Positions 8,178-26,369 of a stretch of 40,807 nt of DNA are shown here, one piece after another. Below the pieces are notes generated by a model. That model ran no database searches. It had not been told where the DNA came from and saw nothing but the letters and a program-made list of their open reading frames with translations. Position numbers and translations under genes: made by a program. Numbering within the stretch: position 1 is the first letter of the stretch; each line of letters begins with the position of its first letter. This DNA is from Verrucomicrobiota bacterium (GTDB lineage Bacteria > Verrucomicrobiota > Kiritimatiellia > RFP12 > UBA1067). The stretch covers positions 1 through 40,807 of the forward strand of contig JAKJGY010000015.1 in assembly GCA_022704145.1 (NCBI GenBank), given 5' to 3'.

Positions 8178-9011
8178 ATGAAAGAAGCCGTCACCAACTC
8201 ATACGTCCCGGCCGACATGGCCCTGCGCGCGGAGGCCTCGGCCATTCGCAAGGCGAACCGCGATTTCGTCACCGCGTTCTTTCTCGCGGTGCAGGCCGGC
8301 TCGTTCATCGCCCTCGGCGCGGCCTTCTTCACCGCCGTGATCCACGACTCGGCGCTCGGCGCGGGCCTGACCCGGCTTGTCGGCGGCGTGGCCTTCTCGC
8401 TCGGCCTGATCCTGGTGGTCGTCGCGGGCGCGGACCTCTTCACCGGCGACACGCTGATGATCATGGGCTGCCTGAGCCGGAAGATCACGGTGCGGCAGAT
8501 GCTGCGGTGCTGGGCCTTCGTCTTCTGCGGCAACCTCGCGGGCGCGCTGGCCATCGTCTGGCTGGTCCACGCCAGCGGCCACTGGACCGCCAACGGCGCC
8601 GCCGTGGGCGTCAAGGCCCTGGCCATCGCCCAGGCGAAAATGGGCCTGACGTTCGGACAGGCGTTCAGTAGCGGCATGCTCTGCAACATCCTCGTCTGCC
8701 TGGCCATCTGGCTCTGCCACGCTTGCCGTTCGGTGACCGACAAGATTCTCGCGATCCTATTCCCCATCACCGCCTTTGTGGCCATGGGCTTCGAGCACTC
8801 GATCGCGAACATGTACTTCGTGCCGGCCGGACTGCTGCTTAAAGGCGAACCGACGGTCACGCGCCTCCTGCCGGGCGTCGACCTGTCAGGCCTCACGGCG
8901 GCCCGTTTCGCGCTCACGCACCTGCTTCCCGTGGCGATCGGCAACATGGTGGGCGGAGCCGTGTTCGTGGGCATGGTCTACTGGGTGCTCTACCTGCGTA
9001 AACGGGGCTGA
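8178..9011 (+). CDS. Formate/nitrite transporter (FNT) family channel
   Basis: A 277-residue membrane protein with six transmembrane segments. FNT signatures are visible: FTGDTLMI after the second to third helix, the short GMLCNILVCLAIW segment with its conserved asparagine, and GFEHSIANMYFVPAG. FNT proteins are pentameric channels for small monovalent anions such as formate, nitrite, hydrosulfide or lactate. Formate is an end product of sugar fermentation, which would fit the surrounding saccharide genes, though the ion is not provable. The gene stands alone between the ABC operon and the first GH-A gene. Confidence 0.88.
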   Translation: MKEAVTNSYVPADMALRAEASAIRKANRDFVTAFFLAVQAGSFIALGAAFFTAVIHDSALGAGLTRLVGGVAFSLGLILVVVAGADLFTGDTLMIMGCLSRKITVRQMLRCWAFVFCGNLAGALAIVWLVHASGHWTANGAAVGVKALAIAQAKMGLTFGQAFSSGMLCNILVCLAIWLCHACRSVTDKILAILFPITAFVAMGFEHSIANMYFVPAGLLLKGEPTVTRLLPGVDLSGLTAARFALTHLLPVAIGNMVGGAVFVGMVYWVLYLRKRG

Positions 9012-9091
9012 CCCTAGGGGCCATGCCCAGGCGCAGGCCCGCCCTATGGGGGCCAGTCCGCCGGTTGTGGCGCGCGACGGGAGGCGGCTGG

Positions 9092-9105
9092 GGCGCGATC
9101 GCGCC
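9092..9105. promoter_or_regulatory. Perfect palindrome upstream of the GH-A gene
   Basis: GGCGCGATCGCGCC is a perfect 14-bp palindrome, 27 bp before the ATG at 9133. It could be an operator, but in such GC-rich DNA chance is possible. Confidence 0.35.
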
Positions 9106-9132
9106 TGTCGGCCCAAGGCGAGGGGATGGGGT

Positions 9133-10611: not shown

Positions 10612-10658
10612 CGAAGGCGAGTTCTGGCCTCCGAAGGATGAGAGGCCCGGTATCGCGT

Positions 10659-10683
10659 GGCACGGGCATCTTGCCTGTGCGCC
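10659..10683. repeat. Short inverted repeat of the GGCACGGGCA type
   Basis: GGCACGGGCA-TCT-TGCCTGTGCGCC forms a near-perfect stem. Translated, it gives GTGILPV on one strand and QDARAT on the other, peptides I associate from memory with a repeat scattered through PVC-group genomes. Confidence 0.6.
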
Positions 10684-10744
10684 AGTCCCCGCTCTCCAGA
10701 CCGACAGAAGTCGCGACCAAGTTTCTGCGACGCCCACACTCCTC

Positions 10745-10821
10745 CTCGTTCTCGTGCTCGTCCTCGTTCTCGTCCTCGTCCTCGATCCGGCCGCGTTTTC
10801 GAGGACGAGAACAAGGACGAG
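10745..10821 (-). repeat. Hexanucleotide repeat hairpin (CTCGTT type), copy 2
   Basis: Seven 6-bp units (10745-10786), a spacer, then a purine arm (10800-10821). The arms 10757-10778 and 10800-10821 pair at 21 of 22 positions around a 21-base loop. Relative to the copy at 1510-1599 the orientation is reversed. Confidence 0.75.
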
Positions 10822-11044
10822 TGGTGGCGGACAGCGGGAGGGGCGCTACGGTGGAGGCGGCGTCCCCGCCGCGTGCGGCGTATCTGAACGTGCCCCCCTT
10901 CCCCACTGAGAACGCACAACAGGATTGCTTACGGCCGGGACAAGGCTTATCCTTATCCCCGCACACTTGAACCGGGCGCCTCGCGGACGGCCTTAAGAAA
11001 AGGCGCGCAGGCGAGGCGCAGCCACAACGAAAGAGGGAACCAGG

Positions 11045-11911
11045 ATGAACAGTCAGGCGATTTCTGTCTCACGTCGGTCGTTTTTAGGCGGCGCGGCGGC
11101 GCTGGGCGCGGCGGCGCTGGCTCCCGCCAAGCTGTTTGGCGCGGAAGCCAAGCCGAACTCCTGTTTCGGCGGCGTGCAGATCGGCACGATCACCTACAGT
11201 TTCCGCTCGATGCCCAAGGGCGCCGAGGCGGTGCTGCAGCATGTGCTCGGCTGCGGTCTCAGCTCGATCGAGCTGATGGGCGACGTGGTCGAGTCGTTCG
11301 CCGGCAATGACCTGGAAAAGGTCGCGGCGCTGAAGAAGATGTACGCGGACGCGGGCGTCGGCATCCACATCGTCAAGTTCGGCAACATCGGCGACGCCAA
11401 GGTGACGGACGAGAAGATCGAGTACTACTTCAACGTGGCCAAGGCGCTGGGCGCCAAAGCCATCACGCGCGAGATCAGCGAGGAGGCGGCCAAGCGCCTC
11501 GGGCCGCTCGCGGACCGCCACGGCGTGAAGGTCGCGTTCCACAACCACACGCAGATCAACGCGACGACCTACGACGGGGCGATCCTGTCGTACGGCAAGA
11601 ACCTCGCGATCAACCTCGACATCGGCCACTATGTGGCGGCGAACGCGGACTGCGTCCTGGCGCTCATCGAGAAATACCGCGACCGCATCTACAGCCTGCA
11701 CCTCAAGGACCGCAAGAGCAAGGCGAACGGCGGCGCCAACATGCCGTTCGGCGAGGGCGACACGCCGGTCGTCGGGGCGCTGCAGCTCCTGAAGAAAGCC
11801 AAGCTGCCGATCTTCGCCGACATCGAACTGGAGTACAAGATTCCCGAAGGCTCCGACGCGGTCAAAGAGGTCGCCAAGTGCGTCCAGTACTGCAAGCAGG
11901 CCCTGGCGTAA
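11045..11911 (+). CDS. Tat-exported sugar phosphate isomerase/epimerase-like protein (xylose isomerase-like TIM barrel)
   Basis: A 288-residue protein with a twin-arginine signal (SRRSFLGGAAALGAAA) within the first 35 residues. The mature part is an AP-endonuclease-2/xylose-isomerase-like TIM barrel. Metal ligands are visible: IELMG early, FHNHTQ, NLDIGHYVA, LHLKDR and DIELEY near the end. Such barrels isomerise or epimerise keto sugars, or act as dehydratases on inositol-type substrates. Export by Tat implies a cofactor or metal loaded in the cytoplasm. GAGGGA precedes the ATG. The next gene, another Tat-exported sugar enzyme, starts 61 bp later, so they are probably one operon acting on sugars in the periplasm. 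Confidence 0.8.
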   Translation: MNSQAISVSRRSFLGGAAALGAAALAPAKLFGAEAKPNSCFGGVQIGTITYSFRSMPKGAEAVLQHVLGCGLSSIELMGDVVESFAGNDLEKVAALKKMYADAGVGIHIVKFGNIGDAKVTDEKIEYYFNVAKALGAKAITREISEEAAKRLGPLADRHGVKVAFHNHTQINATTYDGAILSYGKNLAINLDIGHYVAANADCVLALIEKYRDRIYSLHLKDRKSKANGGANMPFGEGDTPVVGALQLLKKAKLPIFADIELEYKIPEGSDAVKEVAKCVQYCKQALA

Positions 11912-11972: not shown

Positions 11973-13352
11973 ATGAAGAGTCAGCCTCAAGGTGCGGCCA
12001 AGCTGTCGCGCCGCTCGTTTCTGGGTTCGGCCGCCGCGGCGGGCGCGGCGTTCTCGATCGTGCCGCGGCACGTGGTGGCGCGCTCGGGCCAACTGGCGCC
12101 GAGCGACAAGCTGAACATCGGCTGCATCGGCGTCGGCGGCATGCAGGGCGCCAGCGACGTGAATAACGTCAGCAGCGAGAACATCTACGCCCTTTGCGAC
12201 GTGGACGAGACCTTCCTGAACAAGTCGGCGGGGAAGTACGCGCAGGCCAAGAAGTATCGTGACTTCCGCGAGCTGCTGGACAAGGAGCACAAGAGCCTCG
12301 ACGCCGTGACGATCACGATCCCCGACCACATGCACGCGACCGCCGCACTGTGGGCGATGGAGCGGGGCCTGCACGTGCACTGCCAGAAGCCGCTGGCGCA
12401 GAGCGTGTGGGAGTGCCGCCAGCTCGCGAAGGCGGCGCAGAAGTACAAGGTGGCCACACAGATGGGCAACCAGGGCTACTCGCACCCGGCGACGCGCATC
12501 GCGTGCGAGACGATCTGGAATGGCGACCTGGGCGAGATCAAGGAGGTCCACGGCATGAGCGGCGGCGGCTTCGCGCGCGGCGTCAAGGCGTGGCCGGCCA
12601 AGGAGGAGCTGCCGCGCACGCTGGACTGGGAGCTGTGGACCGGCCGCGCGGCGCTGCGCGACTACAGCCCGAAAATCGCGCCGATCCAGTGGCGCGGCTT
12701 CATCGACTACGGCACGCAGATGATCGGCGACTGGGGCGTGCACATCATGGGCCCGGCCAACTGGGGCCTGCAGCTCGCGGATCCGCTCAGCGTGGAGTGC
12801 ATCGCGGTCGACGAGGTCAACGAGGTGACCTACCCGCACTACGCGTGCCGCTTCGAGTTCGGCGAGCGACCGAACCCGCATGTGCCCGGCGGCAAGATGC
12901 CCCCCGTGACGGTCTACTGGTACGAGGGCAAGATGTGCGGCAAGTTCCAGGCTCCGGAGGGGCTGACGCCTGAAGACGTGAAGCCCTACAACGAGGTCTT
13001 TGTCGGAACCAAGGGCTTCATGGGCACGACCGGCCGCGGCGAAGGCGTGCGCCTGATCCCCGAGGCCAAGATGAAGGACTACAAGAAGCCGCCCGAGGTC
13101 ATCGAGCGCTCGCCGGGGCACTTCAAGGACTGGATCCGCGCCTGCAAGGGCGGCCCGGCGGCCTGCTCGAACTTCGGCATCTCCGCCGCGTTCACAGAGT
13201 GGATGCTGCTCGGCACGATCTGCTGGCGCTTCCCTAACCAGAAGCTGCTGTGGGACGCCAAGAACCTGCGCTTCACCAACAGCGAGCAGGCCAGCGCCTT
13301 CGTCAAGCCCCACTTCCGCAAAGGGTGGGAGCTGAAGGAGGTTTCGGTCTAG
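11973..13352 (+). CDS. Tat-exported Gfo/Idh/MocA family oxidoreductase
   Basis: A 459-residue protein with a twin-arginine signal (SRRSFLGSAAAAGAAF). A Rossmann NAD(P)-binding motif follows at about residues 47-60 (NIGCIGVGGMQGAS). The conserved lysine segment is HCQKPLAQS, where QKP replaces the usual EKP; this variant is common in Tat-exported members as I recall. The C-terminal alpha/beta domain includes GDWGVHIMGPANW and binds the sugar. These enzymes oxidise or reduce a sugar hydroxyl, often carrying a tightly bound NAD(P). The ATG at 11973 has AAGGG 8 bp upstream; the longer frame starts in the TGG repeat. With the preceding isomerase-like gene it suggests oxidation-isomerisation of sugars outside the cytoplasm. 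Confidence 0.88.
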   Translation: MKSQPQGAAKLSRRSFLGSAAAAGAAFSIVPRHVVARSGQLAPSDKLNIGCIGVGGMQGASDVNNVSSENIYALCDVDETFLNKSAGKYAQAKKYRDFRELLDKEHKSLDAVTITIPDHMHATAALWAMERGLHVHCQKPLAQSVWECRQLAKAAQKYKVATQMGNQGYSHPATRIACETIWNGDLGEIKEVHGMSGGGFARGVKAWPAKEELPRTLDWELWTGRAALRDYSPKIAPIQWRGFIDYGTQMIGDWGVHIMGPANWGLQLADPLSVECIAVDEVNEVTYPHYACRFEFGERPNPHVPGGKMPPVTVYWYEGKMCGKFQAPEGLTPEDVKPYNEVFVGTKGFMGTTGRGEGVRLIPEAKMKDYKKPPEVIERSPGHFKDWIRACKGGPAACSNFGISAAFTEWMLLGTICWRFPNQKLLWDAKNLRFTNSEQASAFVKPHFRKGWELKEVSV

Positions 13353-13431: not shown

Positions 13432-15351
13432 ATGTCTGAGCTACTTCGCAAAGCGGCGCGGTTTGCGCTGGCGGTTTTCGCGGTCGGCGCGCTCGCCGAG
13501 GAGCGGCCGCCGCTGGCGTTCGCCTACCGTTCGTTCTGGCCCGAATTCGAGGCCATGGCGCAGTTCCGCGACGTCGGCGTCGACACGGTCTGCATTTTCG
13601 CGGCGAACACCGACAACTCGCTGGGGCAGCCCTACTGCAAGTACCCGCCCGTCTGGCGCTGGTTCGGCAAGTACGACTTCGGCTCGCTGGACAAGCAGTA
13701 CGATGACGTGCTGGCCGTGAACAGCAACGCGGCCTTCATCTGTATGCTCGACCTCAACACCCCGGTCTGGCTGCAGCGGCAGCTCTCGTTAAAAGGCCAC
13801 AGCGCCGAGTGCGAGAGCTTCACCATGCTGAGCTGCGCCTGCGCCAACCCCGCGTGGCGCAAGGAGACGGGCGAGTACGTCCAGGCGGTCGTCCGGCATC
13901 TGGAGGCGCGCTACGGCGACCGCATCCGGGCCTATCTGCTGGCGGCCGGACAGACTGACGAGTGGATGGACTACAGCCGCGGAACGGCGGGCCGGGCCAA
14001 GACCGCGGCGTGGCAGGCGTGGCGGAAGGCGCGAGGCCTGGCGGAAATACCGGTGCCGTCATACGCGCGCCTGGACCGCGCCGCGCTCGACAACTTCCTC
14101 CGCGACCCGGCCGAGGAGCGTGACGTGATCGACTACGCGCAGTTCACCGGCGACACGGTGGTCGATGCGGTCCTCGGCTTTGCCGCCCAGGTGCGGGGCC
14201 TGATTCCGCGGCAGCGGCAGATCGGCATGTTCTTCGGCTACATCCTGGAGCTGACGCACAACCGCCTCGTGTGGGCGGGCCATCTGGAGTACGAGCGGCT
14301 CTACGCCTCGCCGGATATCGATTTCTTCATCAGCCCCGGCACGTACGGCGACCGGCCGGTGGGCGGCGGCAGCGGCTTCATGGTTCCGAACGGCACGCGG
14401 CGGCTGCACGGCAAGGGCTTCCTACACGAGATCGACCACCGCACGCCGACCTATAACTGCGCCCTTGACGAGTACGTCTCGATCGGGTGGATGGTGCCGT
14501 GGAAAGACCAGGCCGAGACCGACGCGGGGCTCAAGCGCGAGTTCGCGCTGGCGATCGTCAATCAGGCGTCGCTCTGGTGCTTCGACATGTGGGGCGGGGT
14601 GTTCAGGACGCCTGAGACGATGCAGGTGGTCGCGCAGAGCAAGCGGCTCTGGGACGACTACGCGGGGCTGCCGCTCAAGCCGGTGGCTGAGGTCGCGCTG
14701 GTCGTGGATCCGCAGAGCGCGCGGCTGGTGAACGACCAGCACCCGCTGGTCGCGAAGCTCTATCAGGGCACGCGCAACACGCTGAACCGGCTGGGCGCGC
14801 CGTTCGAGATCTATTCTGTCAACGATCTGCCGCGCGCGGACCTGTCGCAGGTCAGGCTGCTGGTGTTCCCGGGGCTTTTCGAGATCACGCCGGAGAAGGC
14901 GGCGTTGCTCAAGCGTCACGCGCTGTGCGGCGGCCGGACGGCGGTGTTCGTCTACGCGCCCGGCGTCAGCGACGGACAGAGTCTCGATCCGGCGCGGGTG
15001 GCGGCGCTCACCGGGACCGCCTTCAGGACTCCGGGCGTCAGCACGGCCGTGCGCGACGGCTGGACGGCGGTCTACGCGGGCACGTACGACGCGCTGACGC
15101 CGCAGTCGTTGCGGCAGGCGGCGGTCGCGGCGGGCGTGACGATCTATTGCGAGGAGGCGGTGCCGGTCTACGCCAACGAGCGGCTGGTCGCGGTGCATGT
15201 GGCGCAAGGCGGCGATAAGACGATCACGCTGCCGCAGGCGTGCCGCGCGGTGCGCGAGCTGTACACGGGGCGTGTCGTTCCGGTGCGGGACAGGCGCTTC
15301 ACCTACCCTTTCGCCACGCCCGACACCGCGCTGTTCGAGCGGGTCGAATGA
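13432..15351 (+). CDS. Secreted GH42-like hydrolase (beta-galactosidase-like barrel plus trimerisation-type domain)
   Basis: A 639-residue protein with a signal peptide (about residues 1-22, ending GALAEE). Residues 25-390 form a TIM barrel; E177 in GQTDEWMD is the likely acid/base and E333 in LHEIDHRT the likely nucleophile. Residues 400-550 (VALVVDPQSARLVN, LVFPGLFEITPEKAALLKR) resemble the glutaminase-like trimerisation domain of GH42 beta-galactosidases. Sequence divergence is high, so the family assignment is approximate and substrate is unknown. The ATG at 13432 fits the signal peptide and the GCGAGGG upstream. It starts 79 bp after the oxidoreductase and is convergent with the regulator at 15373, 21 bp away. 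Confidence 0.65.
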   Translation: MSELLRKAARFALAVFAVGALAEERPPLAFAYRSFWPEFEAMAQFRDVGVDTVCIFAANTDNSLGQPYCKYPPVWRWFGKYDFGSLDKQYDDVLAVNSNAAFICMLDLNTPVWLQRQLSLKGHSAECESFTMLSCACANPAWRKETGEYVQAVVRHLEARYGDRIRAYLLAAGQTDEWMDYSRGTAGRAKTAAWQAWRKARGLAEIPVPSYARLDRAALDNFLRDPAEERDVIDYAQFTGDTVVDAVLGFAAQVRGLIPRQRQIGMFFGYILELTHNRLVWAGHLEYERLYASPDIDFFISPGTYGDRPVGGGSGFMVPNGTRRLHGKGFLHEIDHRTPTYNCALDEYVSIGWMVPWKDQAETDAGLKREFALAIVNQASLWCFDMWGGVFRTPETMQVVAQSKRLWDDYAGLPLKPVAEVALVVDPQSARLVNDQHPLVAKLYQGTRNTLNRLGAPFEIYSVNDLPRADLSQVRLLVFPGLFEITPEKAALLKRHALCGGRTAVFVYAPGVSDGQSLDPARVAALTGTAFRTPGVSTAVRDGWTAVYAGTYDALTPQSLRQAAVAAGVTIYCEEAVPVYANERLVAVHVAQGGDKTITLPQACRAVRELYTGRVVPVRDRRFTYPFATPDTALFERVE

Positions 15352-15372: not shown

Positions 15373-16584
15373 TCAGGCGTGGCGGTGCCGTTCGCGGTAG
15401 TCGCGCATGGTCATGCCGCAGGCGTCGCGGAAGAGCACGCCGAGGTGGTTGGCGCCGGTGAAGCCGCAGCGGCGCGCGATCTCCGAGAAGGTCAGGCCGG
15501 TGTGGGCGACCAGCGAGCAGACGGTCGCGATGCGGACGCGCTGAATCTCGTCCATGGCCGAGCGTCCTAACGACTGCGCGAAGCGTTTCTCCAGCCAGCG
15601 CGGGGTCACCCCGGCGTGGTCGGCCACATCGGACACGCGGATGTTCAGCCCCGCGTTGATGCGGATGTATTCCAGCGCGCGGATCACGAGGCGGTCGTTG
15701 ACCTGCAAGCGCTGCGTGGAGGCGCGGGTCACGACCTGCTGCGGCTTGAAGGACACGCGCTGCTGCCCGCGCAGCGCCTTGCGCATCAGCTTGTCCAGCA
15801 GCTCGGCGGCCGTATACCCCGCCTGCTCCATATCGACCGCCACGCTCGAGAGCGGCGGCTGGCTGGTCTCGCAGATCATCACGTCATTGTTCACGCCCAG
15901 CACGGCGACCTCATACGGCACGGGCAGGTCGGCGGCCAGACAGGCGTTCAAGACCTGTCGGCCGCGCTCGTCGTTCGCCGCGAAGACGGCGAGCGGCTTG
16001 GGGAGCCTGAGCAGCCAGCGGCTCATGCGCTTGCGCTCCAGCTCCCACTCCGCGCGCTCAACCGCGCACGGATTCTGATAGACCGCGCAGCCGTACCCGG
16101 CCTCTTTGAGCCGAAGGACAAAGGCCTCCTGGCGCCAGCATGACCAGTTCATGCCGCTGGGTTCGCCGACAAAGGCGAAATGCTTGAACTCGTTTGCGAG
16201 ATAGTGGTCGGCGGCCAGCCGCGCCACCTCCGCCGAATCGCACTGGATGCGGCTGCAGCGGGACAGCGGGTGCCTCGCGTTCAGATAGGCGTCGAGGGGG
16301 TCGATCAGGACGGTGGGCAGGCGCGCCGCCACGACGGCGTCGGCGACCTGCGGCGTCGGCACGCGCGCGATGATGCCGTTACCGCGCCAGACCTTCAGGT
16401 CCGGCAGTTTCTGGTCGCTCCAGCCTCCGGACTCGAGGTGCAGCGCCCACGGCCCATGGAGCCGCACGTAGGCGAGAATGCCGCGGATCATGCCACGCGA
16501 GATCTCGTGCGACGACTCCAGCAGGATGGCGACCTGCGGGATACGCTGTCGGGTGGTCTTCTTGGCTGGCCGATTCGGAGTCAC
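15373..16584 (-). CDS. XylR-type regulator: LacI-like sugar sensor fused to AraC DNA-binding domain
   Basis: A 403-residue protein. Residues 15-285 are a periplasmic-binding-like sensor (VAILLESSHEISRGMIRGI, FAFVGEPSGMNW, VFAANDERGRQVLNAC, VAVLGVNNDVMICE). Residues 295-400 are an AraC helix-turn-helix pair (IRVSDVADHAGVTPRWLEKRF, LTFSEIARRCGFTGANHLGVLF). This is the architecture of XylR from E. coli, which activates sugar genes when the sensor binds its sugar. It starts with GTG without a ribosome binding site and is divergent from the exported-protein gene at 16872, so it probably controls the saccharide locus on one or both sides. Short palindromes in the 287-bp divergent gap are candidate sites. 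Confidence 0.88.
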   Translation of the reverse strand: MTPNRPAKKTTRQRIPQVAILLESSHEISRGMIRGILAYVRLHGPWALHLESGGWSDQKLPDLKVWRGNGIIARVPTPQVADAVVAARLPTVLIDPLDAYLNARHPLSRCSRIQCDSAEVARLAADHYLANEFKHFAFVGEPSGMNWSCWRQEAFVLRLKEAGYGCAVYQNPCAVERAEWELERKRMSRWLLRLPKPLAVFAANDERGRQVLNACLAADLPVPYEVAVLGVNNDVMICETSQPPLSSVAVDMEQAGYTAAELLDKLMRKALRGQQRVSFKPQQVVTRASTQRLQVNDRLVIRALEYIRINAGLNIRVSDVADHAGVTPRWLEKRFAQSLGRSAMDEIQRVRIATVCSLVAHTGLTFSEIARRCGFTGANHLGVLFRDACGMTMRDYRERHRHA

Positions 16585-16871
16585 GGGTCAAACGTAACGC
16601 TTATCCGGCGGCCCAGCAATCCCAAAATGGATGCATCCTGCGGACCGAAGGGACTTCGGCGCGTCCCCCACCCCCCTGCCCCATGGCCAGGCGTCAGCCC
16701 CTCCCCTCATCTTGGCCCGCTTCGTAAAATCGAGGGTTGAGTTCGCATTATCGAGATTGATCCACGTTCGTTTCAGCCCCTATCATTTTGATTGATGGTC
16801 CAAGGTGTCAAGGTGCTCTCGATTAGGATAGCCGTCAGAGATATGGCGTGCAAATGCGGATGGGAGAGGGT
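16585..16871. promoter_or_regulatory. Divergent regulatory gap with short palindromes
   Basis: The 287-bp gap between the XylR-type regulator and the exported protein contains GGATGCATCC (16629-16638, perfect) and CCGAAG-GGA-CTTCGG (16645-16659, perfect). Near 16730-16835 the motif ATCGAG/CTCGAT occurs three times. A regulator of this architecture would be expected to bind here. No strong sigma-70 promoter could be picked by eye. Confidence 0.4.
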
Positions 16872-18209
16872 ATGAATGCGTTCAAGGCCGGAAGGGGCGT
16901 GGCGGGTGTTGTCCTGGCGTGTGCGGTGGCGCGGGCTGCGCCGGTGCCGGTGTCGAATGTTCTGACCGTTCCGGGGTTCAGTGCTTCCGGGATCACGTCG
17001 AACGGGCAGACGCTCGCCTATATCCAGCTCGGTTCCTCGTGGTATCCGCCTTCGGGTGCGCTCTGCACGTCGTGTGCGGCAGGCACCCTCTCGCGGGCGG
17101 TGCTCGAGCCTGATGCCATCACCCGGACCAATGCCTTGAGCGGGCTTCAGCTCACGCAGGCGGTCGTGAATTTTGAGAGCGGCGGGGCCAAGTTTAAGCT
17201 CGGGCTGACCGTGGAGGACGACAGCGTGGGCATTGTGCTGGGCGAGCTGGGCACCAATCAGCAGAACACGGGAGATCCGATCACCGTGTACCCCACGCTC
17301 AACGGCGCACGCGTCGGGGGCTGGGTGCGGGCCATCGTGGCGGCGGACTACGGTGACACGGGGCACCTCTGGCAGAACACCTACGGCAACCTGATCATGC
17401 ATGCGTTTGTGACCGTCTTCCGGCACAGCGACTTCACAAATGGCACCGGGGTGCTGACCTTCGACGGGATCGAGCTGACGGGAAACACGGGCTACGACCC
17501 CAACCTCGTGGCCGTGATCGGGGAGCCGGCGCCGCCCTACTCGCCGTCGACGTCCCGTGTGCTACCCGCTACGGCGACGTTCTCGCCCGGTTTTGTCGAA
17601 AGTCCGGAGACCAACCTCCAGACGGTCGTGAGCCTCACCACCAGCGAAGGCACGTTCACGAATCTGACGGGCCTGACCTGCACCAGCGTTTCGGGCGGCG
17701 CGGTCTACCAGACCAACACCAATGTGCCCCTGTCAACAGTGGAGGCGATGAGCGGGCTGAAGTTCACGGAGATCGTGGCCAATGCGAACAGCATGGATTT
17801 TTCGCTCGGGCGAACAGTGAACAGCACGAATGACCGGGTGCGGTTCTTCCTGAGCGAATGCGAGGTGGACACGGCGGGCACGATGGACACGATGATCGTT
17901 TATCCGCTTGCGGGGAACACGCGCATCTATAACTGGGCGCTGGAGCTGACCAGCCCCGACTACGGGACACCTAGCCCAAAGTGGAACGCCATCCGGGTCA
18001 GTGACAGGCACAACCCTGGATTCTACGGTTCGATCGCCACTTTCGCGCTCAGCGACTTCACCAACGGCCCGCCGATCGCCCTGACCGGGGTGACCGGATT
18101 CCGGGTGGTGATTCCCCTGCTCGGCGGCCTGCAGGCGGATCCGAGCGTGTTCGGCATGTACGAAATCCCGCCACCTCCGCCGAAGGGGACGATGATTCAA
18201 GTCTGGTGA
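16872..18209 (+). CDS. Exported protein with two tandem copies of an unrecognised domain
   Basis: A 445-residue protein; a signal peptide (about residues 1-23, ending VARAAP) is followed by two related segments. Copy 1 has SGLQLTQAVVNF, ITVYPTLNGARVGGWVRAI, AADYGDT and HSDFTNGTGVLTFDGIEL. Copy 2 has SGLKFTEIVANA, MIVYPLAGNTRIYNWALEL, SPDYGTP and LSDFTNGPPIALTGVTGF. Each copy is roughly 190 residues, rich in beta-prone, Ser/Thr/Asn-rich sequence. I recognise no family. There is no lipobox, PEP-CTERM or membrane tail. The ATG at 16872 has GGGAGAGGG upstream. It is the first gene of the cluster leading to the LamG-GH, transporter and dehydratase genes, so a carbohydrate-binding or surface role is a reasonable guess. 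Confidence 0.75.
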   Translation: MNAFKAGRGVAGVVLACAVARAAPVPVSNVLTVPGFSASGITSNGQTLAYIQLGSSWYPPSGALCTSCAAGTLSRAVLEPDAITRTNALSGLQLTQAVVNFESGGAKFKLGLTVEDDSVGIVLGELGTNQQNTGDPITVYPTLNGARVGGWVRAIVAADYGDTGHLWQNTYGNLIMHAFVTVFRHSDFTNGTGVLTFDGIELTGNTGYDPNLVAVIGEPAPPYSPSTSRVLPATATFSPGFVESPETNLQTVVSLTTSEGTFTNLTGLTCTSVSGGAVYQTNTNVPLSTVEAMSGLKFTEIVANANSMDFSLGRTVNSTNDRVRFFLSECEVDTAGTMDTMIVYPLAGNTRIYNWALELTSPDYGTPSPKWNAIRVSDRHNPGFYGSIATFALSDFTNGPPIALTGVTGFRVVIPLLGGLQADPSVFGMYEIPPPPPKGTMIQVW

Positions 18210-18294: not shown

Positions 18295-20961
18295 ATGAGG
18301 ATGGGCAACATACGGGGTCTTTTGTGTTGGGTGGCAGGCGCGGCCTGCGCGGGGCCGACAGCGTTCTGGCGGTTCGAGGAGGGCAAGGTCGGCGGCACGG
18401 CGGGCGTGTTCGACAAGGGCGCGGCGCCGGTGTTTGCGGAAGAGGTGCCGGTCAAGGAGCTGTGGGACGGCGCGAGCGGGCTGCCGGTCGCGCCGGAGAA
18501 CCGCGCGTCGCTGCGTTTCCGCGTTCCGGAGGAGGTCAGGGGCGGCGGCGCGCCGGTGGGCGGCGAGGTGACGGTCTCGGGCAAGGAGGCGCTGACGCGG
18601 CCGGAGAGTTTCACGGTGGAGGCGTTCGTGCGGGTGGCGCGGCAGACGGAGCGCCACGCGCTGGTGGCGAGCAAGCGGCGCGGCGGACAGACGGGCGCGA
18701 GCTGGTCGCTCTCGCTGACGCCGGGCGGGACGCTCGGGGTGCGGTTCGACACGCAAGCGGGAGCCGCGGGCGGCGGGCCTGGTTTCAACCAGATCGTCGG
18801 CTCGGCGGCGCTGGTGAACGACGGCGCGTGGCATCAGGTGGCGCTGACCTACGATGCGGCGACGCGGGCGGCGGTGCTGTACGTGGATTATTTGCCGAGC
18901 GGCAAGGGGACGGTGCTGAACCCGTTGGTGTATGACGAGAGCGACCTCGTGCTGGGGCGCGGGCTGGACGGCTGGCTGGACGAGGTGCGGCTGACGGCGG
19001 AGGCGCTGCATCCCGAGCAGTTCCTGCGGCCGGTGCGGTTCTTCTCAGACATGAAGCCCAAGGCTGCGGTTCTGCCGCCGATGTTGGATCAGACGCCGAC
19101 GCGGGTGCAGAGCGCGCTGAAACCGGCGCTGAAGAAGATCGGCACGCTGATCCCGAAACCGGTCGGTCAGCTTGAGACGTCGATGTGGTCGCTTGGATGC
19201 GAGACGCTCGACCGCGATCTGGCGGACTGGGAGGCATACAAGGGGTATCTGGTGCCGCTGGGCATCCGGCGTATCCGCTTGCAGGGCGGCTGGAACCGTA
19301 CTGAGAAGAGGAAGGGCGAGTACGATTTCGAGTGGCTCGACCGGATCGTGGACAGCGCGCACGAGCTGGGGCTGGAGGTATGCCTGGAGACGTCGTACAA
19401 CAACCGGCTGTATGAACCGGGCGGAGCGACGGGACCGGGCGGGCTCCTGCCGGCAGGCGAGGAGACGCTGGCGGCGTGGGACCGGTGGGTCGAGGCGATG
19501 GCGCGACGTTACTCGGCCAAAGGCGTGAAAGAGTGGATGATGTATAACGAGCCGAACCTGCGCAAGGAGAACACGCCCGCGCAGATCGTCGCCAACAACA
19601 TCCGCACCGCAGAGATCATCAAGCGGGTCGATCCGCAGGCCAAGATCGGCGCGTTCGTGCTGGCCGGGCTGAATCTGGAGATGATCCGAAGCATGCTGAT
19701 CTCGATCCAGGAGCAGGGCAAGCTCGACCTCTTCCACTGGGCGATCTATCACGGCTACAGCGGCAACCCCGACCGGCTGAACGGGCGCATGGCGGAGTTC
19801 AACGCGATGCTGGCGGAAGTCGCGCCGAAGATCAGGGCGTGGCAGGGCGAGGCGGGATGCGCGTCCGAGGAGGTGCAGTTCGCGCTAGCGGGGATTGACT
19901 GGACCGAGTACTCGCACGCCAAGTGGAACGCGCGGCGGATGCTGTGCGACATCGGCCACGGCGTCGAGTCGTCGGTGTTCACGATCTCGGATCTCAGTTA
20001 CCACAAGGACTTCATCTCGCGCTACGGGTTACTCAAGACCAGTCCGGACAATGCGATCATCCGCGTGAAGACGGCGTATTATACGGTACAGAATGTGGTG
20101 ACGGCTTTCCATGACGCGCTGGAACGACTGCCGGAGTACGCGCTGACGGTCGAGGGGACGGAGAAGGCGTTGACGTGGTTCGCGTTCCGCGACCGGAGGA
20201 GCGGTCTCGACGTGGTGGCGTTGTGGGACGGCACGGAGATTCCCTCCAACCACTCCGAGATCGAGACGGTGCGGGTGACGGTCAAGGGCGGGCGCTTTAA
20301 GGAGCCCGTGTGGGCGGATCTGATCACAGGGAACCTTTACGAGATTCCGGCGGGGCAGATGACCGTGGCGGACGGGACTACGGTGTTCACGGACGTGCCG
20401 GTGTACGACGGGCCGGGCGCGCTCATGGATCGCGGGCAGCTTGATTTCGTTCCGGCGCGCGAGAAGAAAGGCGCGAAGCGCGCGCCGGCGGCGCAGCCGA
20501 AGCAGTCTGCGGCGGCAGCAGCCGTGCCGAAGGTGGGTGTCCATCTGCTGCCGGGCACGCAGCAGCCCGCGCCTGCGGTGCTGGTGGTGGCGCAGAAGGC
20601 GGAGGCGGGCGGCTGGGTCAAATGGCTCAACGCGCAGGAGGTTCACGCGTTTGTCGTGGAGACGGACGGCAAGTCGGCGGAGGAGGTCGCCCAGGAGGCG
20701 GCAGGCGCGCTGGCGCTGATCCGCGGCCGCGCGGCGGAGTGGCAGGTGCGGGCGGGCTCGGTGGGCGCGCTCGGCGCTGAGGCCGAGGGCGCGCTGGCGG
20801 CGCGCGCGGAGGGCGTGGATTTCGTGGCGGTGATCGGCGCTAAGGTGCCGGAGGACGCGCTGGCGCTGGCGGAGAAAGGGCGGCTGTTCGTCGGCAAGCG
20901 GGACGCGTGGCAGGCGCCGTTCGCCGCATGGCTAGAGAGGTACAAGGGGAAGGTGTTCTGA
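18295..20961 (+). CDS. Secreted LamG-GH-A glycoside hydrolase with extra C-terminal domain
   Basis: An 888-residue multidomain protein. A signal peptide ends near residue 20. Residues 22-250 are a LamG/concanavalin-like domain (SFTVEAFVRV, GAWHQVALTYDAATRAAVLY, GWLDEVRLTAEAL), usually carbohydrate-binding. Residues 265-735 are a clan GH-A hydrolase closely matching the enzyme at 9133-10611: RRIRLQGGWNRTEK, MMYNEPNL (acid/base E419), RAWQGEAGC (nucleophile E519). After an Ala/Lys/Gln linker, residues 770-888 look like a degraded alpha/beta-hydrolase-type fold without an obvious catalytic serine. A start at 18301 is equally likely because AAGGG sits 6 bp before it. Its TGA overlaps the ATG of the dehydrogenase gene, so they are translationally coupled. 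Confidence 0.78.
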   Translation: MRMGNIRGLLCWVAGAACAGPTAFWRFEEGKVGGTAGVFDKGAAPVFAEEVPVKELWDGASGLPVAPENRASLRFRVPEEVRGGGAPVGGEVTVSGKEALTRPESFTVEAFVRVARQTERHALVASKRRGGQTGASWSLSLTPGGTLGVRFDTQAGAAGGGPGFNQIVGSAALVNDGAWHQVALTYDAATRAAVLYVDYLPSGKGTVLNPLVYDESDLVLGRGLDGWLDEVRLTAEALHPEQFLRPVRFFSDMKPKAAVLPPMLDQTPTRVQSALKPALKKIGTLIPKPVGQLETSMWSLGCETLDRDLADWEAYKGYLVPLGIRRIRLQGGWNRTEKRKGEYDFEWLDRIVDSAHELGLEVCLETSYNNRLYEPGGATGPGGLLPAGEETLAAWDRWVEAMARRYSAKGVKEWMMYNEPNLRKENTPAQIVANNIRTAEIIKRVDPQAKIGAFVLAGLNLEMIRSMLISIQEQGKLDLFHWAIYHGYSGNPDRLNGRMAEFNAMLAEVAPKIRAWQGEAGCASEEVQFALAGIDWTEYSHAKWNARRMLCDIGHGVESSVFTISDLSYHKDFISRYGLLKTSPDNAIIRVKTAYYTVQNVVTAFHDALERLPEYALTVEGTEKALTWFAFRDRRSGLDVVALWDGTEIPSNHSEIETVRVTVKGGRFKEPVWADLITGNLYEIPAGQMTVADGTTVFTDVPVYDGPGALMDRGQLDFVPAREKKGAKRAPAAQPKQSAAAAAVPKVGVHLLPGTQQPAPAVLVVAQKAEAGGWVKWLNAQEVHAFVVETDGKSAEEVAQEAAGALALIRGRAAEWQVRAGSVGALGAEAEGALAARAEGVDFVAVIGAKVPEDALALAEKGRLFVGKRDAWQAPFAAWLERYKGKVF

Positions 20962-21737
20962 TGCGTTTTCAAGACAAGGTGGTCCTGGTGACCGGCGCGA
21001 GCCGGAACACAGGGGTGAGTATCGCGGCGCTCTTCCTGCGCGAGGGCGCGCGGGTCGGTGTGAACGGCTCCACGCCTGAGAGCACGGCGCGGGGTGGCGA
21101 GACGCTGCGGGGGATGGGATATGACGGCTTCCTTGAGCTGCCGGCCGATATCGGCGACACGGGGCAGGTGCGGGCGATGTTCGACAAGATCCGCGAGGTG
21201 TACGGGCGCATCGACATCCTCGTCAACAACGCCTGTAACCAGGGGATAGGGCCGGCTTTCGAGGAGATGGAGCCGGACTATTTCCTGTCGGTCGTGCGGA
21301 CGAACCTACTCGGCACTTTCCAAGTGTCACAGGAAGCGGTTAAGATGATGCTCAGACAGGAGAGCCGGGGGGTGATCGTGAACCTCGGCTCGAACGTCTC
21401 GATGCGGGCGATCCGTAACCGGACGGCGTATGTGTCGAGCAAAGGCGGGCTGGATGCGCTGACCCGTTCGATGGCGGTGGATCTGGGGCCGAAGGGGATA
21501 CGGGTGAACATGGTCGCGCCGGGGTACATCTTCACCGACCGCTGGGAGAGGATCAGCGAGGGGACGCGCGCGCGGCGCCGGCTGAATTGTCCGTTGGGGG
21601 CAGAAGCCTCCGGTGATGACATCGCGCAGGCCGTGGCGTTCCTGGCGTCGGACGCGGCGCGTAACATCGGCGGTGAGCGCCTCGTGGTGGACGCCGGGTG
21701 CAGCGCGCAGCACATGCCGGTCGATACGGATTTGTGA
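20961..21737 (+). CDS. Short-chain dehydrogenase/reductase (SDR), probable sugar dehydrogenase
   Basis: A 258-residue classical SDR. The cofactor motif is TGASRNTG (residues 11-18), with asparagine where most have the first glycine of GxG. NNAC at 89-92 replaces NNAG. The catalytic set is S144, Y157 and K161 (YVSSK). The C-terminal VAPGYIFT and ASDAARNIGGERLVVDAG segments are standard. It uses NAD(P) to oxidise or reduce a sugar or sugar-derived alcohol in the cytoplasm. The ATG overlaps the hydrolase stop by one base (TGATG). With the MFS transporter and dehydratase that follow, oxidation of an imported sugar to an acid and its dehydration is a likely sequence. Confidence 0.9.
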   Translation: MRFQDKVVLVTGASRNTGVSIAALFLREGARVGVNGSTPESTARGGETLRGMGYDGFLELPADIGDTGQVRAMFDKIREVYGRIDILVNNACNQGIGPAFEEMEPDYFLSVVRTNLLGTFQVSQEAVKMMLRQESRGVIVNLGSNVSMRAIRNRTAYVSSKGGLDALTRSMAVDLGPKGIRVNMVAPGYIFTDRWERISEGTRARRRLNCPLGAEASGDDIAQAVAFLASDAARNIGGERLVVDAGCSAQHMPVDTDL

Positions 21738-21787: not shown

Positions 21788-21795
21788 TAATAAAC

Positions 21796-23049
21796 ATGAA
21801 ATCATCAAAAACCTACAAGTGGGAGCTGTTGTTGTGGCTCTCGCTGGCGTTCTTCACGCATCAGGCCGGTCGTGCGGTTCTGGGGATCGTGGTCCCGGAT
21901 GTCCAGCGCGACCTGAATCTCTCGGATGAGCTGACGGGGTGGGTGCCGGCCTGCCTTTCGATCGTGCTCGGCGTCATGATCCCCGTCTCCGGCATCCTCG
22001 GGGACCGCTACAGCCGCAAATGGATCATCACCTGGACGCTGATCGTGGGGAGCGCCGCGACTGCGCTGGCAGGCGCTTCGGTGGGGTTTCTCACGCTCGT
22101 GCTCTTCTACAGTGTCACGTCGGCCACCTGTGAGGCGCTGTATGCGCCTTCGGGATATTCGCTGCTGGCCAGTTTCCATAAGGAGACGCGCGCCGTGGCG
22201 ATGTCCGTGCATCAGTCCGCGCTCTACATCGGCGTGATGACCTGCGGCGTGATCTCGGCGTACATCGCCGAGCGCTGGAGCTGGCGTTGGTCGTTCGCCG
22301 CTTTCGGACTCTTCGGCGTGGCGCTGGGGGTCATCGCGATATTCCGGCTCAAGGACGCGCCGCATGACACCGCGGAGGCGGCGGGCGGGCCGGACAGGCC
22401 CGGCGTGCTGGAGGCGCTACGCGCGCTGATCCGGATACCCAGCGCGGTGCTGTTGACCGTCGCTTTCACGGCGGTCGTCTTTGTGAACAACATATACTGG
22501 TTTTGGGTGCCCAAATATTTGCAGGATCCTGAAGGGCTGTTCCGGCTGAGCAAGACCCAGTCCAGCGGGGCCTTCACGTACCATGTGCTCGCGGCGATGG
22601 TCACGATCCTGTGCGGCGGCTTCCTGACGGACTGCTGCGTGAAGCGTGACCCCAAGTTCCGCCTGCGGCTGCAGGTGGCGGCGCTGCTGCTGGGGGCGCC
22701 GACGCTGTATATGGTCGGGAAGTCAACGACGGTCATGGCGGTCTGGGTGTTCTGCGCGCTCTACGGTGTGTTTCGGGGACTCTTCGAGATCAACACGCAT
22801 ACTTCGCTCTTCGATGTGGTGCCGGCGCGTTTCCGTGCCACGGCGGTCGGGTTGCTGACCATGTTCGGTTTTCTGGTCGGCGGTACGGCAGGCCCCTGGC
22901 TGGTCGGCTATCACATGAAACGGATCGGCACAGAGGCGGGCATGCGGCTCGGCTTCAGGCTCATGGCGGTCGCCTATGTAATCGGGGGGTTAGCCATGCT
23001 GGCCTCGCTGCTGTTCACGTTCGTGAGAGACCGGAGGGATTCGGAATGA
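21796..23049 (+). CDS. MFS transporter, anion:cation symporter type (sugar acid uptake)
   Basis: A 417-residue membrane protein with about twelve transmembrane segments. The loop between helices 2 and 3 carries the MFS motif as GDRYSRK (near residue 72). Overall it resembles the hexuronate/glucarate/phosphate-sugar group (ExuT, GudP, UhpC types): TSATCEALYAPSGYSLLASF and FVNNIYWFWVPKYLQ. It likely brings a sugar acid or oligosaccharide product into the cell. The ATG at 21796 was chosen where the hydrophobic protein begins; upstream frame runs through the 9-bp repeat. No clear ribosome binding site precedes it. Its stop overlaps the next ATG by 4 bp. Confidence 0.85.
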   Translation: MKSSKTYKWELLLWLSLAFFTHQAGRAVLGIVVPDVQRDLNLSDELTGWVPACLSIVLGVMIPVSGILGDRYSRKWIITWTLIVGSAATALAGASVGFLTLVLFYSVTSATCEALYAPSGYSLLASFHKETRAVAMSVHQSALYIGVMTCGVISAYIAERWSWRWSFAAFGLFGVALGVIAIFRLKDAPHDTAEAAGGPDRPGVLEALRALIRIPSAVLLTVAFTAVVFVNNIYWFWVPKYLQDPEGLFRLSKTQSSGAFTYHVLAAMVTILCGGFLTDCCVKRDPKFRLRLQVAALLLGAPTLYMVGKSTTVMAVWVFCALYGVFRGLFEINTHTSLFDVVPARFRATAVGLLTMFGFLVGGTAGPWLVGYHMKRIGTEAGMRLGFRLMAVAYVIGGLAMLASLLFTFVRDRRDSE

Positions 23050-24221
23050 AGATTACGGGGGTCAAGACGTTCGTCTGCAACGCGTACCGGACAAACTGGG
23101 TGTTCGTCAAGGTGCTGACGGACGAGCCGGGGCTGCACGGTGTCGGCGAGGCGACTTTGGAGTACAAGGAGCACACGGTCGTTTCAGCCTGCCAGGAACT
23201 GGAGCGCGACCTGATCGGGAAAGATCCGCGCGATATTGAGGCGTTGTGGCACAGCAGCTATCGCGACGCGTACTGGCGCGGCGGGCCGGTGCTGATGAGC
23301 GCGATATCGGCGATCGACATCGCGCTTTGGGATATTCTGGGCAAGAGCCTTGGCGTTCCGGTCTGGCGGCTGTTGGGCGGGCAGGTGCGCGACCGTGTGC
23401 CGTGTTACGCCAACGGCTGGTTCGCCGGGGCGAAGGAGCCGGAGGAGTTCGGCGAGAAGGCGGCGGAGGCGGTGGAGAAGGTCGGCTGGAAGGGCCTCAA
23501 GTGGGATCCCTTCGGCTCAGCGTACCGTCACCTGGAACCGCAGGCTTTCCGGAAGGCGCTCCGTTGCGTCGAGAAGGTTGTCGAGGCGGTGGACGGGCGT
23601 GCCGAGATCCTGATCGAAGGGCACGGCCGGTTCGACCTGCCGACCGCCCTACGTGTCGCTCACGCGCTGGAGGATTTCAACATCCTCTGGTTCGAGGAGC
23701 CGATCATCCCGGACACGGTCGAGGCGCTTGCCGACTTGCGCAGCCGCGTGAAAGTCCCGCTCTCCTTCGGCGAGCGGCTCTACAGCGCCTGGCAGTTCCG
23801 CACGCTGCTGGAGGCGCGCGGCGCCGACTATGTGCAGCCGGACGTCTCGCACGCCGGAGGCATCACCGAGCTGCGCAAGATCGCGGCCGTCGCCGAGACG
23901 CACCACATCCCGTTCTGCCCGCACAATCCGAGCGGGCCGGTGGCCAACGCGGCCACGCTGCAACTGGCCGCCTCGCAGCCGGGCTTCTATCTGTTGGAGA
24001 CCATGGCCAGCGATGTCCCCTACCGGCGCGAGATCTGCCAGGAGCGGGTCACGCTCCGCGACGGTTACATGCACATCCCCGACACTCCGGGCCTCGGCGT
24101 GGAACTGAACGAGGCGGCGATCGTCAGATATCCCTATCAGCCCACCTCGCTCCGGCATTACAAGGGCACGCTGACCGAGATCCGTCCGGCAGACGCGACG
24201 GACTACTTCAAACAGGCTTAG
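23046..24221 (+). CDS. Enolase-superfamily dehydratase, galactonate-dehydratase-like (mandelate racemase/MLE)
   Basis: A 391-residue protein of the mandelate racemase/muconate lactonizing family, with N-terminal capping domain (1-120) and a TIM barrel. Likely metal ligands are E191 (IEGHGRF), E217 (WFEEP) and E243 (FGERLYS), with catalytic H193 and H293 (CPHNPSGP). From memory the E. coli galactonate dehydratase residues are D183, H185, E209, E235 and H285, exactly 8 lower, so the active-site plan is the same except that Asp is replaced by Glu. These enzymes dehydrate sugar acids to 2-keto-3-deoxy acids; cycloisomerases of anhydrosugar acids also belong to the superfamily. It overlaps the MFS gene, so transport and dehydration are coupled. 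Confidence 0.87.
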   Translation: MKITGVKTFVCNAYRTNWVFVKVLTDEPGLHGVGEATLEYKEHTVVSACQELERDLIGKDPRDIEALWHSSYRDAYWRGGPVLMSAISAIDIALWDILGKSLGVPVWRLLGGQVRDRVPCYANGWFAGAKEPEEFGEKAAEAVEKVGWKGLKWDPFGSAYRHLEPQAFRKALRCVEKVVEAVDGRAEILIEGHGRFDLPTALRVAHALEDFNILWFEEPIIPDTVEALADLRSRVKVPLSFGERLYSAWQFRTLLEARGADYVQPDVSHAGGITELRKIAAVAETHHIPFCPHNPSGPVANAATLQLAASQPGFYLLETMASDVPYRREICQERVTLRDGYMHIPDTPGLGVELNEAAIVRYPYQPTSLRHYKGTLTEIRPADATDYFKQA

Positions 24222-24284
24222 CCTTGGGACGCACGTGACCGCGCGACGCGAGCTTGTGCGAGACTACGTTAAGGAGACACGTTC

Positions 24285-26369
24285 ATGAGACTGATGGCGC
24301 CAGCGTTGGTGATGGTGATGGTTGCGGCGCGCGGAGGAGAGGTCGTGCTGTTCGATGCGGCAAGCACGCCGCTGGCGGCGGTCGCGTCGCATTCGGGCGG
24401 GACGTTCGCGCTGAACGCGGGGGTGCTGGAGATCGCGACCCAAGGCAACACGGGATATCCGGGCGTGCGGGTCAAGGGCCAGTGGGATCTTTCAGGGTAC
24501 AGCCGGCTCTCGCTCGAGATCGTGCACCGCGACGGCAAGGGCGAGCTGCCGCTGACGGTACGGCTGGACAATCCCGACGCCGACGCGGGCAAGGGCCGGG
24601 GCGTGTTCGTCGATCGGATCAAGACCGCGCGGGGCACGAGGGTCTATGAGGTGGCGCTGCCGCCGACGCTGCCTCACGCGCGGGCGATCAACGCCCGGCT
24701 CGCGGGCATGCGTACCGGGCCGTTCACGACCACCGGACTCGTGACCGACCTGGACGCCTCGCGGGTGGTCGGTGTGGCGGTCTACATCAAGGAGCCGAAA
24801 CTGGACTGGCTGTGGGGCGTGAAGCGCATCGTGGCTCACACCGGGCCGCTGGCGGAGGTGCCCGCGTGGATGCGGCTGACGGAGGCGGAGTTCTTTCCCT
24901 TCATCGATGTCTACGGGCAGTTCAAGTACAAGGAGTGGCCGGGCAAGATCCATTCCGACGCCGAGCTGAAGGCGGCGGCAGAGCGCGAGCAGGCCGATTT
25001 GGCCGCGCATCCCGGCCCCAGGGGCTGGAGCCGGTTCGGCGGCTGGGCGGACGGGCCGCGGCGGCAGGCGACGGGCCACTTCCGGGTGGAGAAGATGGAC
25101 GGCAAGTGGTGGCTGGTGGATCCTGAGGGCTATCTCTGGTGGTCGCACGGTCCGGTGCGCGTGACGCCCTCCACCGCCCTCACGCCGCTAGACGGCCGCG
25201 AGTCATACTTCACGGAGCTGCCGGCTGAAGGGAGCCCGTTCGCCAAGTTCTATACGACGCGCGACGAGCTGCTCTATCCGTACTACGTGAAACGCAACAT
25301 CCAGCGCACGTACGACTTCTCCTCCGCCAACTGCTACCGCAAGTACGGCCCAGGATACTACGAGGTGTTCGCCGACCTGGCCCACAAGCGCCTGCGGAGC
25401 TGGGGGCTCAACACGATCGCCAACAGCTCGGACAAGAAGATCTGCCTGATGGGCCGTACGCCCTACACCGACCGCTTCGAGCTGAAGTCCAAGCCAATCG
25501 CGGGCAGCCACGACGGCTGGTGGCCGTTCCGCGACCCGTTCGACCCCTCCTTCCGCGCGGATGTGCGCCGGCTGATGGCCGAGCACCGGGCGGAGATGGA
25601 GGACCCCTGGTGCTTCGGCTTCTTCGTGGACAACGAGCTGAGCTGGGGCGGCCCGACCGACCTCGCGGCGTGGACGCTGGCCTCGCCCGCCGACCAGGCG
25701 GCGAAAGCCGAGTTCCGCCGCAGGCTGCAGGCGAAGTACGCCACGGTCGGCCTGCTGAACGCGGCCTGGGGCACGGCGTATGCGGACTGGGAGGCCTTCC
25801 TGGCGGAGACGAGGCGTCCGGGCGCGGGGGCCGAGGCCGATCTGGCCGAATTCACGCTGGCGATCGCCGACGCCTACTTCAAGAACGTCCGTGAGGAGTT
25901 CAAGGCGGCGGCGCCGGACAAGCTCTACATGGGCTGCCGTTTTGCGGGGCGCGGGCCAGAGTTCGCGGTCAAGGCGGCGGCCAGGCACTGCGATCTGGTC
26001 AGCTACAACATCTACGCGAAACACCTGGAGGACTTCAGACTGCCGCAGGGCCTCGACAAGCCGGTGATCATCGGCGAGTTCCATTTCGGCGCGCTGGACC
26101 GCGGGCTGTTCCACCCCGGTCTGATCAAGCTGGAGAGTCAGGAGGAGCGCGGGCGCACGTACGTGCAGTATGTGACCTCGGCGCTCCGGCATCCCAACGT
26201 GGTGGGCGTGCACTGGCACCAGTTCGGCGACCAGGCGACGACCGGCCGCTTCGACGGCGAGAACTTCCAGGTCGGGTTCGTGGACTGCTGCGACACCCCG
26301 TATCCCGAGACGATCGCCGGCATCCGAGAGGTGGGCTACCGACTCTACGAGATCCGCAGCGGGAAATGA
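24285..26369 (+). CDS. Secreted GH50-like hydrolase (beta-agarase/beta-galactosidase-related)
   Basis: A 694-residue protein with an N-terminal signal (about 1-16). Residues 20-185 form a beta-sandwich like the CBM-type domain of GH50 enzymes. Residues 265-690 are a TIM barrel with the GH50-like signatures GFFVDNELSWGG (acid/base E451) and IIGEFHFGALDRGLFHPG (nucleophile E598), followed by VVGVHWHQFGDQATTGR. GH50 enzymes cut beta-1,4-linked galactose in agar-type polymers; relatives may act on other beta-galactans. AAGGAG lies 8 bp before the ATG. It is the last gene of the plus-strand cluster and is convergent with res, 15 bp away. Confidence 0.78.
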   Translation: MRLMAPALVMVMVAARGGEVVLFDAASTPLAAVASHSGGTFALNAGVLEIATQGNTGYPGVRVKGQWDLSGYSRLSLEIVHRDGKGELPLTVRLDNPDADAGKGRGVFVDRIKTARGTRVYEVALPPTLPHARAINARLAGMRTGPFTTTGLVTDLDASRVVGVAVYIKEPKLDWLWGVKRIVAHTGPLAEVPAWMRLTEAEFFPFIDVYGQFKYKEWPGKIHSDAELKAAAEREQADLAAHPGPRGWSRFGGWADGPRRQATGHFRVEKMDGKWWLVDPEGYLWWSHGPVRVTPSTALTPLDGRESYFTELPAEGSPFAKFYTTRDELLYPYYVKRNIQRTYDFSSANCYRKYGPGYYEVFADLAHKRLRSWGLNTIANSSDKKICLMGRTPYTDRFELKSKPIAGSHDGWWPFRDPFDPSFRADVRRLMAEHRAEMEDPWCFGFFVDNELSWGGPTDLAAWTLASPADQAAKAEFRRRLQAKYATVGLLNAAWGTAYADWEAFLAETRRPGAGAEADLAEFTLAIADAYFKNVREEFKAAAPDKLYMGCRFAGRGPEFAVKAAARHCDLVSYNIYAKHLEDFRLPQGLDKPVIIGEFHFGALDRGLFHPGLIKLESQEERGRTYVQYVTSALRHPNVVGVHWHQFGDQATTGRFDGENFQVGFVDCCDTPYPETIAGIREVGYRLYEIRSGK

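Follow-up and report, generated by a model that had tools for sequence, protein, structure and literature searches.

A candidate saccharide-use module combining secreted glycosidases and a Tat-exported enzyme pair in a Kiritimatiellae-type genome

Gene content and organization of the locus

The window analyzed here, a stretch of 40,807 nucleotides, is the whole of contig C127 from a 4.57 Mb MAG of Kiritimatiellae type (G000; 88% complete). Between approximately 9133 and 26369 it carries a set of genes (Table 1) arranged as two operons separated by a XylR-like gene on the opposite strand. The left operon codes in order for the first copy of a clan GH-A glycosidase, a Tat-exported TIM barrel, a Tat-exported oxidoreductase and a GH42-fold enzyme, whereas the right operon codes for a secreted protein of unknown function, the LamG-fused second copy of the GH-A glycosidase, an SDR, an MFS transporter, an MR_MLE enzyme and a GH50 enzyme. 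The locus therewith encodes four secreted glycosidases, namely one GH50, one GH42-fold and two GH39/PslG-like enzymes.

Table 1. Features of the locus, with window coordinates and the principal basis of each assignment
Feature	Position	Strand	Basis
Formate/nitrite transporter, FocA type	8178..9011	+	Pfam Form_Nir_trans 252.6 bits; none in related loci
Secreted clan GH-A glycosidase, GH39/PslG-like, copy 1, 492 aa	9133..10611	+	start ATG 9133; 49% to copy 2
Tat-exported xylose-isomerase-like TIM barrel, candidate 3-keto-glycoside lyase/hydratase	11045..11911	+	AP_endonuc_2 46.3 bits; TAT_signal
Tat-exported Gfo/Idh/MocA oxidoreductase, candidate glycoside 3-dehydrogenase	11973..13352	+	BT_2158_fam; 8tdf/8tdh
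Secreted GH42-fold glycosidase, no Pfam family	13432..15351	+	AlphaFold model vs GH42; two invariant Glu
XylR-like regulator	15373..16584	-	Peripla_BP_3 + AraC HTH
Divergent intergenic region	16585..16871	.	holds all three sigma-70-like sites
Secreted protein, function unknown	16872..18209	+	no Pfam or NCBIfam match; homologues in L022
Secreted LamG + clan GH-A glycosidase, GH39/PslG-like, copy 2	18295..20961	+	Laminin_G_3; PslG/GH39 fold
SDR dehydrogenase, candidate aldose 1-dehydrogenase	20961..21737	+	adh_short_C2 179.6 bits
MFS transporter, nearest D-galactonate transporter subfamily	21796..23049	+	TIGR00893, below cut-off
MR_MLE sugar-acid dehydratase, galactonate type	23046..24221	+	PRK14017; active-site positions invariant
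Secreted GH50 glycosidase	24285..26369	+	5e-89 to GH50 agarases; E451, E598 invariant

A preliminary description of this DNA had drawn a single saccharide locus from 8178 to 26369. Its unity is supported by conserved gene neighborhoods across PVC genomes (see below), but its start falls on a FocA-type formate/nitrite transporter, which we rejected as a member of the module as it is without a counterpart in any related locus and which probably lies outside it. The gene families listed there were recovered, including the SDR, the MFS transporter, the MR_MLE enzyme, the XylR-type regulator, the GH50 enzyme and the GH42-like enzyme, the last by its fold despite the lack of a Pfam match. The list had omitted the secreted protein at the head of the right operon, for which Pfam and NCBIfam searches returned no family and which has two homologs (51% and 42% identity) beside the LamG-GH-A gene in the related locus L022. 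Likewise, both the "clan GH-A" enzyme and the "LamG-GH" enzyme are present, but the two, listed separately, are paralogs of each other. Based on its gene content and conserved synteny, the locus is genuine, and most of it forms a single module.

The regulator scores 23.3 against the Pfam PBP1_XylR model, short of the cut-off of 27. Promoter and terminator scans, made by consensus matching only, recovered three sigma-70-like sites in 17.7 kb, where 1.6 would be expected over the whole region; all three lie in the divergent gap between the operons, a placement that at this expected number is suggestive at most.

The flanks hold further genes. A separate divergent operon on the minus strand (1894-8107) codes for a GH127 protein, a TauE protein and an RbsBCA-type sugar ABC transporter; an RbsA-like gene also occurs near SDR-MFS-MR_MLE, with a GH127 fragment, in the related locus L212. 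On the other side, a minus-strand region (26385-34105) codes for a restriction-modification pair of Type III, whose components match REase_III with 561 bits and MTase_III with 616 bits, along with a TatD-like protein, a Fic protein of the SoFic type and a Bro-N protein that matches PDC-S13; it is followed by a tyrosine integrase (34229-35332).

Secreted glycosidases

The GH50 enzyme matches the solved structure 5z6p with 302.5 bits over residues 206-303 and 295-689. Its E451, the acid/base glutamate, aligns with a position occupied by Gln in entry 4bq4, and E598, within the motif GEFH, aligns with the second catalytic glutamate of the family; both positions are invariant in 14 sequences. Based on this similarity and conservation, it is a genuine member of GH50. 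With the known members (beta-agarases, VadG925 and beta-1,3-glucanases) it shares both catalytic glutamates and sequence similarity in the N-terminal segment as well as the barrel, while being distinct from the solved agarases and having SDR-MFS-MR_MLE as its neighbors. The same genome codes for a second GH50 protein, 43% identical, in L216 (G000:C309, 290-7008), beside a Gfo/Idh/MocA gene and a gene for a ThuA-HEAT protein.

The two GH-A paralogs belong to a family that retains the NEP motif and a second glutamate throughout the alignment. A predicted model of copy 2 (463 residues, pLDDT 94.7) finds PslG/GH39 as the nearest fold in Foldseek (E 8e-21), and profile comparison gives the same relationship (E 4.2e-21) with NEP and the second glutamate aligned. 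The resemblance in fold and catalytic residues is accompanied by only about 18% identity, and copy 2 misses the Pfam GH39 cut-off of 26 with 22.0 and 23.8 bits; no GH39 match was listed for copy 1 in the Pfam search. Of 50 members, 47 show some match to a GH42 barrel motif and 30 to GH39. Thus, by its profile matches the pair is poorly covered by any curated Pfam family and, unlike PslG/GH39, belongs to a coherent PVC/Bacteroidota family, some members of which carry LamG.

For the remaining glycosidase the Pfam search returned no family, GH42 included. Its AlphaFold model (pLDDT 75) has the three-domain fold of GH42, with GH42 beta-galactosidases as the top Foldseek matches (best E 5.6e-20, TM approximately 0.64) and GH164 also close. 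Two glutamates are invariant, 158 and 314 in the numbering of A4.

The Tat-exported pair

That two enzymes of the locus are Tat-exported, as previously noted, is upheld by scores above the cut-offs of Pfam TAT_signal (23.0 against 22.7 for P0002) and TIGR01409 (19.5 and 17.2 against 16.7). The TIM-barrel enzyme conserves E143, H166, D192, H195, H219 and E261 across 31 sequences, of which we take the Glu, Asp, His and Glu positions to be the metal-ligand set typical of the fold. It has no equivalog name and matches the characterized lyases 8tcs and 8tcd weakly (E approximately 0.08). The oxidoreductase has NCBIfam BT_2158_fam, a glycoside 3-dehydrogenase family, as by far its best match (E 3.2e-112), with 375.6 bits against an equivalog cut-off of 750. 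Its nearest solved relatives are 8tdf (6e-77) and 8tdh (1e-73), and it keeps the Lys and His motifs of the Gfo/Idh fold (K139 and H257, numbered from the start at 11973). Related oxidoreductases in L016 and L195 match the same family. By these measures the enzyme is a distant relative of BT2158.

BT2158 is described in PMC11300592 as a periplasmic glycoside 3-dehydrogenase required for disaccharide use in B. theta; our statements on the BT2156-BT2160 pathway rest on that source and on NCBIfam names. Given the match of the oxidoreductase to this family, periplasmic glycoside oxidation has a precedent, and the exported chemistry, earlier called unusual, is not an oddity (PMC11300592). A further parallel is levoglucosan breakdown, in which a dehydrogenase oxidizes the sugar and enzymes annotated as sugar phosphate isomerases eliminate or hydrate the 3-keto intermediates (PMC7676230). 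Since the oxidoreductase is related to BT2158 and its TIM-barrel partner retains the metal-ligand set, the pair suggests, by analogy, 3-keto beta-elimination rather than generic sugar modification. The oxidoreductase resembles BT2158 in being exported, in its Lys and His motifs and in its best family, but it scores half the equivalog cut-off, and the window is without a disaccharide 3-dehydrogenase or DUF1080 gene alongside it; DUF1080 (3keto-disac_hyd) has 20 matches elsewhere in the genome. Similarly, the pair would share with LgdA/LgdB1/LgdB2/LgdC the logic of a dehydrogenase and an isomerase-like eliminase/hydratase, while differing in substrate and in Tat export.

The catabolic core

The MR_MLE enzyme passes the NCBIfam galactonate dehydratase model PRK14017 (323.6 bits, cut-off 311), as do orthologs from L014, L020, L022 and L196, bearing out the earlier statement that it matches galactonate enzymes. 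K152, D154, E191, H193, E217, E243, D266, H293 and E318 are invariant in 31 sequences; from the enolase superfamily in general, we assume that E191, E217, E243, H193, D266 and H293 include the metal ligands and acid/base residues. The bifunctional gluconate/galactonate model gives 320.4 bits against a cut-off of 750. Among solved structures, the putative D-galactonate dehydratase 3rr1 (1e-65) is a better match than 5olc (3e-43), which is tabulated as a galactonate dehydratase and which we believe to be a 3,6-anhydrogalactonate cycloisomerase; we accordingly set aside that function for the MR_MLE enzyme. Catalytic residues, whose loss had been named as something that would refute the preliminary interpretation, are kept in the GH50 enzyme, the GH-A pair and the MR_MLE enzyme.

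The MFS transporter scores 96.3 bits against TIGR00893 (cut-off 395), and an SDR ortholog in L014 passes the NCBIfam "glucose 1-dehydrogenase" subfamily cut-off. SMP-30 lactonase genes occur beside GH-A in L014 and L015, and the genome has a PF01081 aldolase. An SDR, a galactonate-type dehydratase, a lactonase in relatives and this aldolase recall the DeLey-Doudoroff galactonate route, from which the genome, 88% complete, differs in having no match to a DGOK-family KDGal kinase, so that the full route is at most putative. The few genes examined around the aldolase (L215) include no kinase.

Conservation across PVC bacteria

We then examined the gene neighborhoods of related loci. A contig scan with the GH-A pair yielded 26 loci, 14 of which (L009-L022) have the LamG-GH-A form. 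At least one further family of the locus is present in 12 of these 14, which were picked by LamG-GH-A alone; XylR-type regulators occur in six, and SDR and MR_MLE are both found in seven (L014, L015, L017-L020 and L022, each with GH-A), distributed across Planctomycetales, Verrucomicrobia, Victivallales and Kiritimatiellae. Planctomycetales bacterium ZRK34, recorded as a complete chromosome rather than a MAG, combines XylR, MFS, MR_MLE, SDR and LamG-GH-A genes. Of 20 loci fetched by MR_MLE alone, 12 have the SDR, 12 the MFS transporter (one as a fragment at a contig end) and four GH50. The order GH50-SDR-MFS-MR_MLE is kept in L196, L199 and L201 at 78-88% identity (MFS 49-86%) and in L210 at 43-64%, while L146 preserves GH-A-GH42L-GH50-SDR-MFS at 78-87% up to the contig edge. 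Since the core genes recur together in Kiritimatiellae, Verrucomicrobia, Victivallales and Planctomycetes, their association is not a chance neighborhood. The recurrent unit, GH50/GH-A with SDR, MFS and MR_MLE and sometimes an SMP-30 lactonase, supports a predicted role in import and oxidative sugar breakdown.

The Tat-exported genes are adjacent in L016 (67% and 86% identity, beside GH-A copy 1) and in L195. Most loci retrieved only through the TIM-barrel gene are devoid of the other module genes, which makes the pair the looser part. Furthermore, as the pair and the GH50-SDR-MFS-MR_MLE unit lie on different contigs in G011, the module may consist of two systems that can occur apart.

Proposed pathway and candidate substrates

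We propose, with even confidence for and against, a saccharide-use module of two operons centered on a XylR-type regulator, in which a galacto sugar is channeled into galactonate-type oxidation and the Tat-exported pair performs C3 chemistry. The secreted retaining glycosidases (GH50, GH42-fold and the two GH39/PslG-like enzymes) would release from an extracellular polysaccharide a monosaccharide whose configuration is most likely galacto, and the MFS carrier would import the sugar or its acid. The SDR is predicted to oxidize the sugar to a lactone, which might open spontaneously or through a lactonase encoded elsewhere, the SMP-30 proteins of two relatives being candidates for this step. The galactonate-type dehydratase could then form a 2-keto-3-deoxy acid, to be split by an aldolase from elsewhere in the genome. 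In the periplasm, the Gfo/Idh/MocA enzyme may oxidize the glycoside at C3 and the TIM-barrel enzyme eliminate (or hydrate) the 3-keto glycoside, breaking the linkage without a glycosidase. Gene content, catalytic residues, folds and synteny are read directly from the sequences, while the substrate, the sequence of steps and the C3 chemistry of this organism are inferred. It is conceivable, albeit improbable, that the GH-A pair acts on a galacto-configured glycan and represents a family of clan GH-A that is new at the CAZy level, with one polysaccharide being both hydrolyzed and, after Tat-dependent 3-oxidation, beta-eliminated before uptake.

A galacto-configured sugar is the best single guess, resting mainly on the dehydratase. 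Of the earlier case for a galactose-type sugar, the part drawn from the catabolic core stands, with the MR_MLE cut-off and with VadG925 of Victivallis vadensis, a beta-galactosidase and the only characterized Verrucomicrobiota GH50 in its study (PMC11079163). The generalization from GH50 relatives to galactose polymers can no longer be relied on, as the family includes the beta-1,3-glucanases PaBglu50A and Fsa16295Glu (PMC11079163). Together with an apparently laminarinase-like GH16 in L016, whose solved relatives are mostly endo-beta-1,3-glucanases, and with the position of GH127 outside the span, this makes the guess weaker than first claimed. The GH50 glucanases and this GH16 would also suit an exopolysaccharide that contains glucose, or else a beta-1,3-glucan, with the oxidative branch handling gluconate, as would the proximity of the GH-A pair to PslG, which PMC11912335 presents as an endo-beta-glucanase, and the nearly equal score (320 bits) of the MR_MLE enzyme against the bifunctional gluconate/galactonate model. 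We regard this as unlikely, since galactonate dehydratase is the only model whose cut-off the enzyme passes, the first fold matches of the GH42-like enzyme are beta-galactosidases, and glucose, we would argue, has no need of a dedicated dehydratase operon.

Pectic or arabinogalactan side chains, with galactose, rhamnose or another heteroglycan sugar as the fuel, are an equally doubtful target. Such a target would fit the GH127 fragment beside SDR-MFS-MR_MLE in L212, whose contig also codes for a GH106 alpha-L-rhamnosidase. It would likewise fit GH28 and a GH65/95-like gene next to the Tat-exported isomerase-like and GH42-fold genes in L155, GH115 and GH29 near GH-A relatives, and the GH127 of the window itself; however, these companions vary between loci and are missing from the conserved core, and the rhamnonate dehydratase model is far lower for MR_MLE (147 bits). 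The arabinan signal of the preliminary description has no source inside the span, the GH127 gene (1894-3804) being outside it and on the other strand. A true agar locus is highly improbable: beta-agarases are the best solved matches of the GH50 enzyme, but no anhydrogalactose genes were recognized in the window, none of the 48 sulfatase matches of the genome falls in the locus, and several related records are titled from lakes, groundwater and probably a digester. The genomic counts of GH43, GH16 and sulfatases do not decide the substrate.

Conclusions

The proposed galacto-type module links a glycosidase family poorly covered by Pfam with a defined route of catabolism in bacteria of the PVC group, and its substrate is therefore directly testable. 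It would also be a natural example of the newly described 3-keto cleavage chemistry encoded beside ordinary hydrolases.
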